DNA of 46,316 nt from Candidatus Omnitrophota bacterium (GTDB lineage: Bacteria > Omnitrophota > Gorgyraeia > Duberdicusellales > 4484-171): contig JAMXCX010000008.1 of the NCBI GenBank assembly GCA_024542985.1, positions 1 to 46,316 on the forward strand, read 5' to 3'. Below, piece after piece: positions 19,678-24,809 of this stretch. Made by a program: the position numbers and the translations under genes. The notes beneath the pieces were generated by a model. That model saw only the letters and a program-made list of their open reading frames with translations. It was not told the DNA's origin and searched no databases. Positions within the stretch are counted from its first letter, which is position 1; each line of letters opens with the position of its first letter.

Positions 19678-19989
19678 ATGCAGAATACAAGATTCTTGCT
19701 CAAATTAGGCTTGTATAAATCTGGTGAAATGATTTATTTTTCCCAGCTTGATTTAATACATATTCTTGCGCGGGCCTTGAGAAGAACCAACTTACCGCTT
19801 TACTATACTCAGGGGTTTAACCCTCGGGTCAAAATAAGCTTCTCAAGCGGTTTGAAACTAGGCACACAAGGCAGGGTAGATACAACTTTTTATTTTACTG
19901 AGCAGATTTCGCATGAGAAGCTGAAAACAGAACTTCAACCTCAGTTACCAGAGGGTTTAGAAATTATTAAAGATGATGTGAAATGTTAA
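19678..19989 (+). CDS. Short DUF2344 (TIGR03936, radical SAM-linked) protein
   Basis: This 103-aa protein matches the N-terminal half of DUF2344 proteins: FLLKLGLYKSGEMIYFSQLD (20 residues), then ARALRRTNLPLYYTQGFNPRVKIS (in part: YYTQGFNPR). Family members are generally about 200 aa or are fused to the radical SAM partner; this one stops after the LPEGLEII segment. Downstream DNA to the convergent speD-like gene is only 36 nt, so no second half can be present nearby. It may be a naturally short form or a truncated one. It probably works with the preceding radical SAM protein. Confidence 0.72.
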   Translation: MQNTRFLLKLGLYKSGEMIYFSQLDLIHILARALRRTNLPLYYTQGFNPRVKISFSSGLKLGTQGRVDTTFYFTEQISHEKLKTELQPQLPEGLEIIKDDVKC

Positions 19990-20025
19990 AAAAGCAAGGT
20001 AAGGATGTGTGTTTTTTTGAGGTAC

Positions 20026-20385
20026 CTAGCGGATCAGAAAATTTGCTTTTAGTTTTTTTGCCTTGAAGAATTTGCGAGTAAATTTTTTGGCGAGAACCTG
20101 GTTATATTTTTTGCACGAAAAAATATTAATATAGGCCGTTTTCCAATAATCAGAGAAGTGGCCGGTTATGGAGCTGGTTTCGATTAGTTGCACTAAGGAG
20201 TAGCCTTTAGTAAATTCTTCCTTTTCCCCGAAATAAGGGAGAAGAGTTTTGCCGTATTTTTTCATTTTTATTAATTTACATAATTTATCTATGTACTCTT
20301 TCAGTTTTTCCCTCGAGCCAATAATTTTTATATCGCAACCGCTAAGGTCCATAACTAACTCATAGCCAAAGATTTTCTTAGTCAT
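20026..20385 (-). CDS. Short SpeD homologue; pyruvoyl-dependent decarboxylase of uncertain substrate
   Basis: The 119-aa protein aligns with class 1b AdoMet decarboxylase proenzymes. Taking S71 as the pyruvoyl serine, H76 and C91 fall exactly where Thermotoga maritima S63, H68 and C83 lie (spacings 5 and 15). So autocleavage between T70 and S71 is expected. The highly conserved HTWPE is HFSDY here (ETSSITGHFSDYW), and VD-x-FTC is INIFSC. SpeD homologues that lost AdoMet specificity have been shown in other bacteria to be ornithine or arginine decarboxylases. Here the neighbours are the carboxyspermidine genes and no spermidine synthase gene is seen, which favours a diamine-producing role. A GGAGGTG site precedes the ATG. 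Confidence 0.8.
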   Translation of the reverse strand: MTKKIFGYELVMDLSGCDIKIIGSREKLKEYIDKLCKLIKMKKYGKTLLPYFGEKEEFTKGYSLVQLIETSSITGHFSDYWKTAYINIFSCKKYNQVLAKKFTRKFFKAKKLKANFLIR

Positions 20386-20734
20386 TTTTCACCTCCTTCA
20401 AGTAGCTGGGAAACTGCCTACCTGTAGAATTAGTTTGCAGATTGCAATAGCGCGTTTTCGTTTCTAGCTTTTTATCCCCCACGATAAAACCCCGGTCTTT
20501 AGGCCGGAGATGAAAGCAGGTACAGGCTCTGCAAGGAACGGAATACAGGAAACCGCGGACTTTAGCCCGCGGAGCTTCATATTTGAAATCAGATAATATT
20601 TTTTCTACTTTTGGAAGGAGATTAAGGTTGGCAATGTACAAAGGTTCTATTCCAATTTGAACTCTTGTGCGTTTCATGTGTCCATTCGTACAGAAATATA
20701 CCCTTTCCATTTGTTTTGCTGAGTGATTCTTCAT
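20378..20734 (-). CDS. Doubtful 118-aa ORF in the speD leader, carrying two palindromic repeats
   Basis: I do not recognise this ORF. The first 48 residues could be a genuine peptide (IGIEPLYIANLNLLPKVEKI), but from there the frame translates two copies of the CCGCGG/CTTTAG repeat (EAPRAKVRGF and LRPKDRGF). None of its ATGs has a good ribosome-binding site. It ends 8 nt inside the speD homologue, so its translation could couple to or compete with that gene. It may be a repeat-invaded remnant, a leader ORF or chance. Confidence 0.25.
   Translation of the reverse strand: MKNHSAKQMERVYFCTNGHMKRTRVQIGIEPLYIANLNLLPKVEKILSDFKYEAPRAKVRGFLYSVPCRACTCFHLRPKDRGFIVGDKKLETKTRYCNLQTNSTGRQFPSYLKEVKND
20482..20514. 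repeat. CCGCGG/CTTTAG palindromic repeat, copy B
   Basis: GATAAAACCCCGGTCTTTAG, then GCCGGAGATG. The stem is shorter (CCGG/CCGG around TCTTTAGG) than in the other copies, but the flanking GATAAAA and the CTTTAG loop are shared. Confidence 0.6.
20549..20580. repeat. CCGCGG/CTTTAG palindromic repeat, copy C
   Basis: The core CCGCGG-ACTTTAGC-CCGCGG is followed by AGCTTCAT, closely matching copy A (AACTTCAT). It lies in the leader of the speD homologue about 170 nt upstream of its ATG. Confidence 0.75.
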
Positions 20735-20756
20735 CTACTTGCATATCGTTACTCTT

Positions 20757-20785
20757 ATAATAAGGCAAATTCGCGGATTTTGCAA
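20757..20785 (-). promoter_or_regulatory. Promoter candidate for the speD homologue, with shared -35 motif
   Basis: Read on the minus strand, TTGCAA (20785-20780) and TATTAT (20762-20757) are 17 bp apart. The -35 lies in AAATCTTGCAAAAT, which matches the nspC promoter's AAATCTTGCAAGAT at 13 of 14 bases and in the same position. Confidence 0.55.
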
Positions 20786-20853
20786 GATTTTTTTTTAATT
20801 TTTACGATAGTTTTCACGATAAGGAAATATTTTTAGGCTTTGTCCGATTATAA

Positions 20854-22086
20854 TCATACCAGTTGGGCAATTTTAGTTTCCTGAATCTCTGTAGGCAACC
20901 CCAAGGTATTCAATGAGTCAATGAAGGGATCAGGGTCTAGCTCTTCAACATTGACCATGGTTTTGGTATCCCATATACCTTTGGCTATGAGCATAGCGGC
21001 TGCAACCGGCGGAACGCCGGCAGTGTAGGAGATAGCCTGGGATTCTACTTCTTTGAAGCAAGCGGCGTGGTCGCAGCTGTTATAGATAAAAATTTCTTTA
21101 TCCTTGCTGTTTTTTTTGCCTTTGATAAGATTCCCGATGCATGTTTTTCCTGTATAGTTAGGCGCCAGCGACAGCGGCTCAGGCAGAACAGCTTTTATAA
21201 CTTTCAAAGGTACTACCTCAATTCCCTCTGCGGTCTTTACGGGTTTTACTGAGGTGAGTCCTAGTTTAGTGAGAACAGTAAAAATATTTATATAGTGATC
21301 ACTGAAACCCATCCAGAACCGAATACTGTTTGCATCGATATTTTTTGATAAAGAATGAATTTCATCATGTCCGCTCAGATAGATAGTCTGTTTGCCTACG
21401 ACCGGAAAGTCATAAGTTTTTTTTATTGAATGGATATCTTTTGTTACCCATTTTCTGTCAATCCAGGTCAAAACTTTTACGAATTCTCTGAAGTTTATTT
21501 CAGGATCAAAATTGGTTGCAAAATATTTGCCGTGGTTGCCGGCGTTAACATCCATTATATCGATGGTATCGATTGTGTCAAAATGGTGCTTTAGGGCCAA
21601 AGCGCAGTAGGAGTTTACAACGCCGGGATCAAAGCCCACACCCAGAATAGCAGTAATTCCTTTTTCTTTACAGATATCTTTGCGCTTCCATTCATAGTTT
21701 GCATACCAGGGCGGGCTTTCACAGGGTTCCTCGGGCTCTTCGTGTACGGCAGTGTCCATGTAAGCCACTCCTGATTGGATGCAGGCTTCGAGAAGGGACT
21801 TATTTATATATGGCGTGGCAAGATTAATTACTATATGTGAATTAGTTTTTTTTATGAGTTTTATCGTAGCGCTGATATCAAAGGCATCTATTTGGCGGGA
21901 GTACAGTTTTTTTATTTTATCTTTTATATTATTTTTTCTTTTGACGCTTTCGATGATTGAATCGCACTTATATTGTTTTCTGGATGCAATACAGATATCA
22001 CCTAAAATATCATTGTTTTGAGCGCATTTGTGTGCAGCCACATGGGCAACGCCGCCAGCACCGACTATCAGTACATTTTTTATCAT
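20854..22086 (-). CDS. Carboxynorspermidine/carboxyspermidine synthase (saccharopine dehydrogenase family)
   Basis: The enzyme (CASDH) joins aspartate semialdehyde to putrescine or diaminopropane with NADPH, giving carboxyspermidine or carboxynorspermidine. The 410-aa product has the N-terminal Rossmann loop VGAGGVA (residues 8-14), the AxPYxNxxLLEACI segment (ATPYINKSLLEACI), and the central LGVGFDPGVVNSY motif typical of this dehydrogenase family. The length matches. An AAGGAG site precedes the ATG, and nspC ends 30 nt upstream, so both form an operon. The family also contains lysine-pathway saccharopine enzymes; the adjoining decarboxylase settles the polyamine role. Confidence 0.92.
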   Translation of the reverse strand: MIKNVLIVGAGGVAHVAAHKCAQNNDILGDICIASRKQYKCDSIIESVKRKNNIKDKIKKLYSRQIDAFDISATIKLIKKTNSHIVINLATPYINKSLLEACIQSGVAYMDTAVHEEPEEPCESPPWYANYEWKRKDICKEKGITAILGVGFDPGVVNSYCALALKHHFDTIDTIDIMDVNAGNHGKYFATNFDPEINFREFVKVLTWIDRKWVTKDIHSIKKTYDFPVVGKQTIYLSGHDEIHSLSKNIDANSIRFWMGFSDHYINIFTVLTKLGLTSVKPVKTAEGIEVVPLKVIKAVLPEPLSLAPNYTGKTCIGNLIKGKKNSKDKEIFIYNSCDHAACFKEVESQAISYTAGVPPVAAAMLIAKGIWDTKTMVNVEELDPDPFIDSLNTLGLPTEIQETKIAQLV

Positions 22087-22116
22087 TTTTATTCTCCTTC
22101 TTATTTAAATTTAAAG

Positions 22117-23220
22117 TTACGCTAAACTGTTTAGAAAATCTTTATATTTAAAATTACGGATTAACTTTATAGATCCGTTTAGTTTTTTAATTACGATTGA
22201 AGGCATTTTAAGGCCGTTGAACCAATTTTTTTTAACCATTGTATATCCTGCCGCATCAGCGATTTTTATAATTTTGCCTATTTTTAGCTTAGATTTAAAT
22301 TTATATGTTCCGAAAATATCTCCGGCTAGGCATGACCGGCCGGCAATTATATATTTAAATTTGCCTCGACCGCAGTTTTCGATTTTAGCATTTTCTCGGT
22401 AAATTAACAAATCTAACATATGCGCCTCTGTTGAAGCATCGACTATGGCGATGTCAGCATCGTTATGAACAATATCCAGTACCCTTGTTATAAGTTGTGC
22501 TGATTCAGTAATCGCTGTTTCACCGGGCTCGAGATATATCTGTATTTCAAACTTTTTGCTAAAATCTTTTAATTTTTTGCAGAATTTCTTTAAGGGATAA
22601 CCTTTTTTTGTAAAATAAATACCACCACCTAAACTGACCCATTTTAATTTTTTTAATAAATCACCGTAATTGCGCTCTATTAGTTTCAAGTTAGAGGAAA
22701 AATTACCGAAATCCTTATTTTCGCAATTATAGTGAAACATCACTCCTTTCAGCAGAGGTGCTATGTTAGATAAGGATTTCTTATTTGCTACGCCAAGCCT
22801 TGAATATTTTCTTGCCGGGTCTGCCAAGTCAAAATGCGAATAGCTTATTTGAGGATTTATTCTTAATCCAATTTCTAAATTTCCAGTTTCTTTGCGGAAT
22901 CTTTTTAGCTGCGCTATTGAATTAAATATTATTTTATCAGCATATTGTCGCACTTTTTGTACTTCTTCTTTTGAGAATGCCACGCTGTAGGCGTGAGTTT
23001 CCTTGCCAAACTTTTCTTTTCCTAAGCGGGCTTCGTATAATGAGCTGCTCGTTGTGCCGTCCATATATTTTTTCATGAGATCAAAAACACACCAGCTAGA
23101 GAAGCACTTTAGAGCTAGTACAGACTTTGCTCCTGAAAGATTACGGACCTGTTTTATGGTTTTTAAGTTTTTTAGGAGTTTACGCTCATCAATTAAATAA
23201 TAAGGTGTTTTTAACTTCAT
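22117..23220 (-). CDS. nspC: Carboxynorspermidine/carboxyspermidine decarboxylase
   Basis: NspC removes the carboxyl group from carboxy(nor)spermidine to make spermidine or norspermidine. This 367-aa fold-III PLP enzyme has the Schiff-base lysine K38 (LALKCF), H163 (FHYNCE), the phosphate-binding glycines SLGGG (196-200), E231 (YLEPGE), and the dimer active-site CLAGD (C297-D301). It is the first gene of the operon nspC-CASDH. The ATG lacks a clear ribosome-binding site. A strong promoter and a palindrome lie just upstream. Diaminopimelate decarboxylase is a relative but has a different length and signature. Confidence 0.93.
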   Translation of the reverse strand: MKLKTPYYLIDERKLLKNLKTIKQVRNLSGAKSVLALKCFSSWCVFDLMKKYMDGTTSSSLYEARLGKEKFGKETHAYSVAFSKEEVQKVRQYADKIIFNSIAQLKRFRKETGNLEIGLRINPQISYSHFDLADPARKYSRLGVANKKSLSNIAPLLKGVMFHYNCENKDFGNFSSNLKLIERNYGDLLKKLKWVSLGGGIYFTKKGYPLKKFCKKLKDFSKKFEIQIYLEPGETAITESAQLITRVLDIVHNDADIAIVDASTEAHMLDLLIYRENAKIENCGRGKFKYIIAGRSCLAGDIFGTYKFKSKLKIGKIIKIADAAGYTMVKKNWFNGLKMPSIVIKKLNGSIKLIRNFKYKDFLNSLA

Positions 23221-23255
23221 TATCGTTTTTGTATGGAGGTTTAAAAATTTTGCTT

Positions 23256-23284
23256 ATATTATCAATATTCAATAAATCTTGCAA
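23256..23284 (-). promoter_or_regulatory. Promoter of nspC
   Basis: Minus strand TTGCAA (23284-23279) and TAATAT (23261-23256) are 17 bp apart. The start would be near 23249, about 29 nt upstream of the nspC ATG. The -35 box is the centre of a perfect palindrome. Confidence 0.65.
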
Positions 23285-23292
23285 GATTTATT
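23271..23292. promoter_or_regulatory. Perfect 22-bp palindrome over the nspC -35 box (operator candidate)
   Basis: The inner 16 bases are AAATCTTGCAAGATTT and the symmetry extends three bases further on each side. It covers the -35 element, the usual place for a repressor operator. The stem is AT-rich and there is no gene that it would terminate, so I favour a protein-binding site. Confidence 0.6.
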
Positions 23293-23338
23293 TTTAAAAC
23301 TGTTCTTTCAGCTTAGCTTAAGGTTAAATTAAAATAAA

Positions 23339-23380
23339 CTTGAGAAAGAGCTTTATTTTTGTTAAAATCTAGCTCTCAAG
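23339..23380. repeat. Imperfect inverted repeat upstream of tRNA-Thr
   Basis: CTTGA (23339-23343) and GAGCT (23348-23352) pair with AGCTC-TCAAG (23371-23380), a ten-base-pair stem with a four-base bulge and an AT-rich loop. The role is unknown. Confidence 0.4.
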
Positions 23381-23423
23381 TAAAAAAGATGCATATATTA
23401 TTTATGGCCCTAAGGCTAAAAAC

Positions 23424-23497
23424 GCCCGCGTAGCTTTAGTTGGTAGAGCAGGGCATTCGTAATGCTCAGGTCGGGGGTTCGAATCCTCTCGCGGGCT
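23424..23497 (+). tRNA. tRNA-Thr (CGT)
   Basis: The acceptor GCCCGCG pairs with CGCGGGC (23490-23496) with discriminator T. The anticodon stem GGGCA/TGCTC encloses TTCGTAA, so the anticodon is CGT (23458-23460), reading ACG. The T arm is GGGGG-TTCGAAT-CCTCT with two G-U pairs. CCA is not encoded. The MFS gene begins only 16 nt after it. Confidence 0.94.
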
Positions 23498-23513
23498 TAT
23501 AAATCGCTACGAA

Positions 23514-24809
23514 ATGGTTAAACAATATTTAAGACTGCTTAAAGAGCGGAATTTTTTCTTATTGTGGCTTGGTCAAATTATCTCACAGTTTGGAGATAGG
23601 CTGACCCAAATTGCTCTTTTAGGGTTGGTTTCAAAAGTTTCTTTAACGGCAGCCGGTTCATCTGTATCTACGTCCAGATTGGCTTTTGTTATGAGTCTTG
23701 CTATTGTGCCGGTTTTTATAATTTCACCTATATCAGGGGTCTATATCGATCGCTGGAGTAAACGCAAGACAATGTATATCAGCGATGCCGTTCGAAGTAT
23801 TTTTGTTCTTCTGATACCCTTCGCCTTTATAAGATTTAATTCCTTAGTATCTGTGTATGTGCTTGTATTTTTATCTTTCTGTATAGGCAGATTTTTTATA
23901 CCGGCTAAAATGGCTTTTATACCTGAAATCGTAGACAAAGAAGATATTTTTCTTGCAAATACGTTAATTTCTACAACTGCAGCAATAGCTGCGCTTATTG
24001 GTATTGGATTTGGGGCAATTATATTTGAAACTTATGGTGCAGCAACGGCATTTACCTTAGATGCGGCAACTTTTCTTATATCAGCTTTGGCCGTGTTTTT
24101 TATAACAACAACTAACGGCGGTTCTTTTATCTTTCGTGATATTGTTGATATTGGCAAAGATGTTGTCAGCACAGCAAAAAAATCCTTCATTGCTGAGTTT
24201 AAGGAAGGGATAAAATATATTCGGACATCAAATGAAACACGCTATGCTTTTAAAATGTTTTTCTTTGCTTTTTCTTATATCGGAAGCTTATACGTTGTCT
24301 TTATACGTTTTATCCAGGAGACGCTGACTACTCTGGTTAAAGATGTCGGTTTTACTGTTGTTGCTTTAGCTGCAGGTATATTTTTTGGTTCTTTATTCTA
24401 TGGAAGAATTGCTCATAAAATCGATGTTAAAAAAACAATTAATGCTACGATGTTTATTGCCTCTTTGTATCTAATATTTTTTGTTATTTTTTTAAGGATT
24501 CATCCCACACCTTTAAATGCAGTCATCTTGGGTTTTATTTTAGGCTTAGTGGCTTCACCGATAGTCGTCGGCATAAATACTTTAATACACCAAAAAAGCG
24601 ACGGAAATCTTTTAGGCAGGATTTTTAGCGGGTTAGAATTTATTTCGCATTTAGGGTTTTTAGTCTTTATGTTTATATTTTCATTTTTAGCTGACATTTT
24701 CACTCCCTTTACAATTATAATTTCTGTTGGTATAATTGGTGCTTTCATTTCGCTAATATTTGTTTTAAAAAATGATTCTAGTAGCCGAACACAAAAAACC
24801 CCAGCATGA
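23514..24809 (+). CDS. MFS transporter (EntS/MFS_3-like exporter)
   Basis: The 431-aa integral membrane protein has about twelve predicted helices. The N-terminal FLLWLGQIISQFGDRLTQIA is the usual start of the MFS_3 efflux group, and the loop motif GVYIDRWSKRKTMYI corresponds to the conserved GxxxDRxxRR sequence of the major facilitator superfamily. The group includes enterobactin and macrolide exporters, but substrate cannot be read from sequence. Its ATG is 16 nt after tRNA-Thr with no clear ribosome-binding site. Its 3' end overlaps rnfC by 38 nt, so it may be co-transcribed with the Rnf genes. Confidence 0.87.
   Translation: MVKQYLRLLKERNFFLLWLGQIISQFGDRLTQIALLGLVSKVSLTAAGSSVSTSRLAFVMSLAIVPVFIISPISGVYIDRWSKRKTMYISDAVRSIFVLLIPFAFIRFNSLVSVYVLVFLSFCIGRFFIPAKMAFIPEIVDKEDIFLANTLISTTAAIAALIGIGFGAIIFETYGAATAFTLDAATFLISALAVFFITTTNGGSFIFRDIVDIGKDVVSTAKKSFIAEFKEGIKYIRTSNETRYAFKMFFFAFSYIGSLYVVFIRFIQETLTTLVKDVGFTVVALAAGIFFGSLFYGRIAHKIDVKKTINATMFIASLYLIFFVIFLRIHPTPLNAVILGFILGLVASPIVVGINTLIHQKSDGNLLGRIFSGLEFISHLGFLVFMFIFSFLADIFTPFTIIISVGIIGAFISLIFVLKNDSSSRTQKTPA

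Follow-up and report, generated by a model that had tools for sequence, protein, structure and literature searches.

Homologues of SpeD, the S-adenosylmethionine decarboxylase (AdoMetDC), that lack a spermidine synthase (SpeE) partner have been described as pyruvoyl-dependent decarboxylases of arginine (SpeDA) or ornithine (SpeDC) (Li et al. 2023, PMC10407285). The SpeDC type is recognized by four diagnostic residues, Gln, Thr, Phe and Tyr, and its genes cluster with speD/speE, with casdh/casdc or with hss (PMC10407285). The assayed SpeDC proteins include an ornithine decarboxylase from a member of the Omnitrophota, Candidatus Velamenicoccus archaeovorus LiM (WP_128700171), and the enzyme of the speDC-casdc-casdh cluster of Candidatus Electrothrix aarhusiensis, where no canonical AdoMetDC is needed (PMC10407285). 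Here we describe a related locus in another Candidatus Omnitrophota bacterium (assembly GCA_024542985.1, contig JAMXCX010000008.1, 46,316 nucleotides, hereafter the window), comprising nspC, casdh and a gene for a 119-residue SpeD homologue. Judged from its sequence, the locus is very likely a spermidine operon working through SpeDC, CASDH and NspC, with a remnant of an older speD-speE pathway upstream of speDC. The SpeDC enzyme and the cluster type are already known (PMC10407285); the relic leader is the new part.

A preliminary description of the window had placed the three genes within positions 20,026–23,220 on one strand, and this was borne out by the open reading frames (ORFs), all on the reverse strand, and by family profiles. 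NspC scores 432.7 bits on TIGR01047, above the curated cut-off of 409, and CASDH is matched by NF043000 from end to end (484 bits, E = 5 × 10-145) without reaching the curated cut-off of 800 bits. The same cut-off is missed by the CASDH homologues of all 21 CASDH-bearing genomes in the survey described below, so automatic annotation with NF043000 would overlook this branch of the family. Fold membership of the SpeD homologue is clear from PF02675 (54 bits, cut-off 25), and the protein falls far short of the AdoMetDC equivalog TIGR03330 (20.7 bits, cut-off 75.65).

The self-processing and catalytic positions Ser71, His76 and Cys91, already recognized in the preliminary description, are invariant in the 94 SpeDC-like proteins of a SpeD-family alignment that also holds 43 canonical and 39 other proteins (176 in total). 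The window protein also carries Gln66, Thr70, Phe77 and Tyr85, taken as the four SpeDC-diagnostic residues because their columns hold Q, T, F and Y with hardly any variation in the SpeDC-like set and never in the canonical one: the first three are invariant in the SpeDC-like proteins and the fourth is found in 93 of the 94, whereas A, E, T/S and A stand there in canonical SpeD. The typical AdoMetDC motif is HTWPE, and the window protein is changed after the histidine, to HFSDY. The motif is as the preliminary description gave it; since the protein groups with the 94 SpeDC-like proteins and the assayed Velamenicoccus enzyme, HFSDY is the ordinary SpeDC signature and no oddity of this protein. 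In a family tree, a check that the preliminary description had proposed, the SpeDC group, including the window protein and Velamenicoccus SpeDC (locus L094), is split from canonical SpeD with an SH-aLRT support of 100, on 116 columns that give little resolution and with one assayed SpeDC certainly identified among the loci. The window protein and the Velamenicoccus enzyme are identical at 68 of 119 positions (57%). All this indicates that the window protein is very probably SpeDC, a pyruvoyl L-ornithine decarboxylase. A tblastn search of phage records with window SpeDC found no match, so the assayed phage enzymes cannot be placed directly, and a search of PDB sequences returned chance matches only. 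Six viral contigs (L147, L150, L156, L160, L162, L165) carry SpeD-like and SpeDC-like genes side by side, without a visible SpeE in the stretch retrieved, and two loci of the same class as the window (L025 and L026, genomes G049 and G041) encode a SpeD homologue of a third kind, in which ESSIVIHTLTP replaces either motif.

Between casdh and speDC lies an interval of 468 nt, with a predicted sigma70-like promoter and an open frame, in which the preliminary description overlooked a relic of speD, probably joined to a piece of speE. The frame was compared with those of 11 further loci, mostly of one family, the ORFs of relatives being taken from draft metagenome-assembled genomes; most of these 12 leaders have a similar cTTGCAAA...TATAAA site at the same place. 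When ORFs were ranked with a profile of the SpeD N-termini of 13 relatives, the relic came first of 5202 (E = 2.5 × 10-5), and among 9331 ORFs it scored E = 4.4 × 10-5; a broad hidden Markov model from 39 SpeD proteins gave weak matches only, significance being reached with the family-specific N-terminal profile. The alignment runs ungapped from the methionine to residue 41 (MERVYFCTNGHMKRTRVQIGIEPLYIANLNLLPKVEKILSD in the window, aligned for instance with MGKEFCATNGHIKYAGVHLVIELWEACNLTSLPKIRKILKD in L072/L014). By these matches the N-terminus of the relic is homologous to that of true AdoMetDC. The end of the relic resembles the SpeE C-terminus (KTKYYNP...LPEYIKK) and lies where an internal deletion in speD-speE would leave the SpeE end; a SpeE C-terminal profile gives it 9.2 bits, with E = 0.76 among 9331 ORFs and about 10-4 if only the relic ORF is asked, which makes a SpeE-derived part suggestive, not proven.

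The relatives point in the same direction. A sequence model of ten leaders, run over 37 genomes of the family, matched the leaders themselves and, where a genome has speD-speE-speDC, the beginning of its canonical speD. The ORF had at first been read as a dedicated leader peptide, an interpretation that was dropped for a gene relic after this match. A model of nine leaders, with that of the window left out, matched the beginning of speD in the loci of six genomes (E = 2.3 × 10-5 to 1.7 × 10-3) and nothing else below E = 0.8. In the same order of bacteria, L049 has a single ORF before speDC that is a clear SpeD-SpeE chimera (SpeD N-terminus, E = 2.5 × 10-13; SpeE C-terminus, E = 1.3 × 10-5), and L117 has, by eye, an apparent third such chimera. 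A degenerate SpeD precedes speDC in L096 (Sumerlaeota), L105, L110 and L059/L061, the last two by eye or on weak scores. In two planctomycete loci (L093, 4296–5348; L115, 4274–5345) the catalytic Cys of SpeD is replaced by Gly and speE is in pieces ahead of speDC, with casdh-nspC alongside on the other strand; apparently, the replacement of SpeD/SpeE by CASDH/NspC has been caught there at another stage. Relatives with intact speD-speE-speDC operons never have CASDH together with SpeE, and at least 10 changes of module type can be counted on the tree, which is poorly resolved. With degenerate pieces in loci of Omnitrophota, Planctomycetota and Sumerlaeota, the decay of SpeD/SpeE beside speDC appears to have occurred on several occasions. 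The ancestor of the window locus would have had speD-speE-speDC; SpeD and SpeE would have been lost by internal decay or deletion, nspC-casdh would have come to be located upstream, and speDC would have remained. What persists of speD is its 5' end, probably joined to the 3' end of speE, as one open leader ORF running into speDC.

Table 1. Features of the polyamine locus in the window (coordinates are window positions; predicted features are marked as such).
Feature	Position	Strand	Basis
nspC, carboxy(nor)spermidine decarboxylase (pyridoxal phosphate enzyme), 367 aa	22117..23220	-	TIGR01047
casdh, carboxy(nor)spermidine synthase/dehydrogenase, 410 aa	20854..22086	-	NF043000; PF03435 and PF16653 over cut-off
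sigma70-like promoter before relic ORF (TTGCAA, 17 nt, TATTAT), predicted	20757..20785	-	sequence
relic leader ORF, 110 codons from ATG 20710 (118 from ATG 20734)	20378..20710	-	open frame; stop 8 nt inside speDC
relic part matching canonical SpeD residues 1-41	20588..20710	-	N-terminal SpeD profile
two GC-rich hairpins, CCGCGGGCTAAAGTCCGCGG and CTCCGGCCTAAAGACCGGGG	20490..20572	-	sequence and leader alignment
relic part resembling SpeE C-terminus (KTRYCN...FPSYLKEV), suggestive	20390..20473	-	SpeE C-terminal profile
Shine-Dalgarno AAGGAGGTG of speDC, inside relic ORF	20390..20398	-	sequence
speDC, probable SpeD-derived pyruvoyl L-ornithine decarboxylase, 119 aa	20026..20385	-	PF02675, residue comparison, tree
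Ser71 (T. maritima S63)	20173-20175	-	T. maritima counterpart
His76 (T. maritima H68)	20158-20160	-	T. maritima counterpart
Cys91 (T. maritima C83)	20113-20115	-	T. maritima counterpart

The relic frame has been maintained. Over the 12 leaders it contains one stop in 757 codons, located 15 nt before a speDC start; the other two frames have 60 stops in 750 codons and 72 in 748. Shuffling puts the chance of all 12 leader frames being open at about 10-23. Because the relic bodies share a pairwise DNA identity of 0.66, the saturated level that shuffled sequence also gives (0.64), descent alone does not account for this. Each relic either stops no more than about 30 nt from the speDC start or continues in frame into speDC (L106, L108, L114, L116, L130), and in L106 and L130 the relic provides the sole evident start. 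Intact operons have an ATGA overlap of speE and speDC in 16 of 24 cases, and the relics of L102 and L107 retain this exact junction. We infer that the frame is kept because translation through the relic aids that of speDC, continuing the coupling that once linked speE to speDC, and that losses survived only where they preserved the frame; ribosomes on the relic frame would be passed on to speDC or would clear its start site. The relic may further have been co-opted for control, as a translated leader on which the level of speDC translation depends, perhaps responding to ornithine or polyamines, and which in some species would act as an N-terminal tail of SpeDC; this is a tentative idea, which we consider possible but doubtful. 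In the window leader, two GC-rich palindromes with TAAA loops form a stretch (the hairpins of Table 1) that is absent from the related leaders and across which the frame stays open; they look like inserted repeats. The sequence CTAAAGNCC, present in 6 copies in the window where 2.2 are expected, is perhaps a dispersed repeat.

That the relic might be a plain decaying pseudogene without a present role, its frame open through recent inheritance or chance, would agree with its poor sequence conservation, with the related loci L098, L109 and L123, which do without a relic, and with the Shine-Dalgarno that SpeDC has of its own. This explanation is nevertheless unlikely, given the near absence of stops at shuffle-level identity and the five in-frame fusions, two of them with the relic as the only evident start. 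An ORF that senses ornithine or polyamines with the help of a hairpin, as the enterobacterial speF leader does, is a less promising interpretation, and we regard it as improbable. Over the 12 leaders a hairpin 45–75 nt past the ATG is more stable than in shuffled sequences (Fisher p = 5 × 10-6), the flanks being weaker (0.18 and 0.04), and its arms differ between species. In the window, however, the hairpin is unremarkable (z = 0.24), the peptide is hardly conserved beyond the first dozen residues, an Rfam search of the intergenic region had no match, and RNAalifold detected no consensus pairs in the leader alignment, so the hairpin is stated here as an excess of folding energy only.

The genomic context favors the pathway suggested by the gene order. 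In the proposed sequence of reactions, SpeDC would cleave itself at Ser71 to form the pyruvoyl group and convert L-ornithine to putrescine, CASDH would join putrescine and aspartate semialdehyde into carboxyspermidine, and NspC would decarboxylate the latter to spermidine, AdoMet and SpeE not being required; the chemistry of these steps is that known for the enzyme families, and it is along them that flux would run. Gene absences were judged by family searches in the genome to which the window belongs, an assembly of 1.57 Mb that is 88% complete. It encodes one SpeD homologue, and its CASDH and NspC genes are adjacent. No SpeE over cut-off was found, in agreement with the earlier observation that the window contains no canonical speE, and no match was found to PF00491 (agmatinase/arginase), PF01276 (OKR-type decarboxylase) or PF04371 (agmatine deiminase). 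The sole other PF02784 protein is lysA, beside argH and dapF, which leaves no pyridoxal phosphate-dependent ornithine or arginine decarboxylase found in the genome; the search for speE, adc, odc and agmatinase genes that the preliminary description had recommended thus turned up none that is genuine. With argH present, ornithine sits on an existing pathway. Among 58 genomes, this one and its relatives, 21 have CASDH and 14 have a SpeE over cut-off, with none having both, and a full-length agmatinase is present in 6, all of them without any SpeD homologue and none a SpeDC-bearing relative. Taken together, these absences and distributions favor the route from ornithine through putrescine and carboxyspermidine to spermidine.

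The idea that the SpeD homologue forms a diamine for its two neighbors is accordingly the one on which all available lines of evidence converge, as far as sequence can tell. The preliminary description had left putrescine and agmatine as alternatives, and of these putrescine, made from ornithine, stands. The protein could in principle be a pyruvoyl L-arginine decarboxylase (SpeDA) whose agmatine is turned into putrescine elsewhere, SpeDA enzymes having arisen from SpeD several times (PMC10407285). This is very improbable: the four diagnostic residues are those of SpeDC, the protein groups with an assayed ornithine decarboxylase, its closest assayed relative, and the missing agmatinase and agmatine deiminase leave no route from agmatine to putrescine. 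On these grounds, and by inference, ornithine is settled on over arginine as the substrate. Scarcely credible is a still-working AdoMetDC that serves an aminopropyltransferase elsewhere, such as a 622-residue membrane-type protein on contig C49, since this only PF01564 match of the genome (109 bits; 147 against NF002956, cut-off 472) has GGGLSG and NLPEP in place of the GGGDGG and DSSDPIGP of SpeE and resembles 700–800-residue proteins of relatives without any SpeD, while SpeE-bearing relatives have a true SpeD as a second gene and the window protein itself has the low TIGR03330 score and altered motif given above.

Several points weigh against the overall reading of the locus. A gene missing from an 88%-complete genome may be unassembled; the sequence does not decide between spermidine and norspermidine as product, a choice that hinges on the supply of putrescine or diaminopropane, of which a putrescine source appears to be present. 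The SpeE part of the window relic is not significant alone, and the nine-leader model missed the window leader, whose kinship rests on the protein match and position. Finally, the Shine-Dalgarno of speDC is a good one, and coupling is not strictly needed.

Other arrangements of these genes were also seen. At L050/L120 of G001 and at L071, L088, L121 and L124, speDC has no CASDH, NspC or SpeE nearby; in G001, a single contig estimated as 79% complete, none of the three is over cut-off genome-wide, so putrescine may be the end product there. L048 (G038:C27, 69800–73683) has two tandem CASDH genes in a 92%-complete genome without an NspC over cut-off, and the speDC of that genome lies elsewhere, at L049, behind the SpeD-SpeE chimera. 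Next to the window locus, at 19678–19989 on the forward strand, a DUF2344 (PF10105) protein of only 103 residues covers the first half of its family and may be truncated. A repeat scan of 19900–23600 detected nothing notable.

The enzyme module extends the published pattern of SpeDC feeding CASDH/CASDC to another genus. Direct evidence for the origin of such modules comes from the relic: in this process the SpeD/SpeE half decays in place, CASDH/NspC takes over, and a neofunctionalized paralogue outlives its ancestor. A remnant that is free in sequence but keeps an open frame also offers a well-defined and testable example of selection acting on translation through an ORF and not on its product; if it does act as a control element, the genes of a lost pathway would have been repeatedly trimmed in frame into a leader for the surviving enzyme. 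The main text of PMC10407285 mentions no leader or upstream ORF, and the literature on polyamine genes of Omnitrophota, in which subscription journals were thinly covered, held nothing closer.

Among described systems, the speF leader of Salmonella and E. coli (PMC6386406) likewise precedes an ornithine decarboxylase gene as a short ORF, but it is a dedicated regulatory peptide of unrelated sequence, whereas the ORF of the window is a gene relic that overlaps speDC and is fused to it in some relatives. The Electrothrix cluster combines SpeDC with CASDC and CASDH as in the window, although its speDC lies upstream of casdc/casdh and that of the window downstream. Velamenicoccus SpeDC, from the same phylum, shares the diagnostic residues and the nspC-casdh-speDC order; in contrast to the window, the Velamenicoccus-type genes were not found to have a relic leader ORF before them. 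The speD-speE-speDC operons of related Omnitrophota (L068, L072, L074 and others), from the same family of bacteria and with an orthologous SpeDC, have intact AdoMetDC and SpeE and no CASDH/NspC, whereas the window has only a relic of them.

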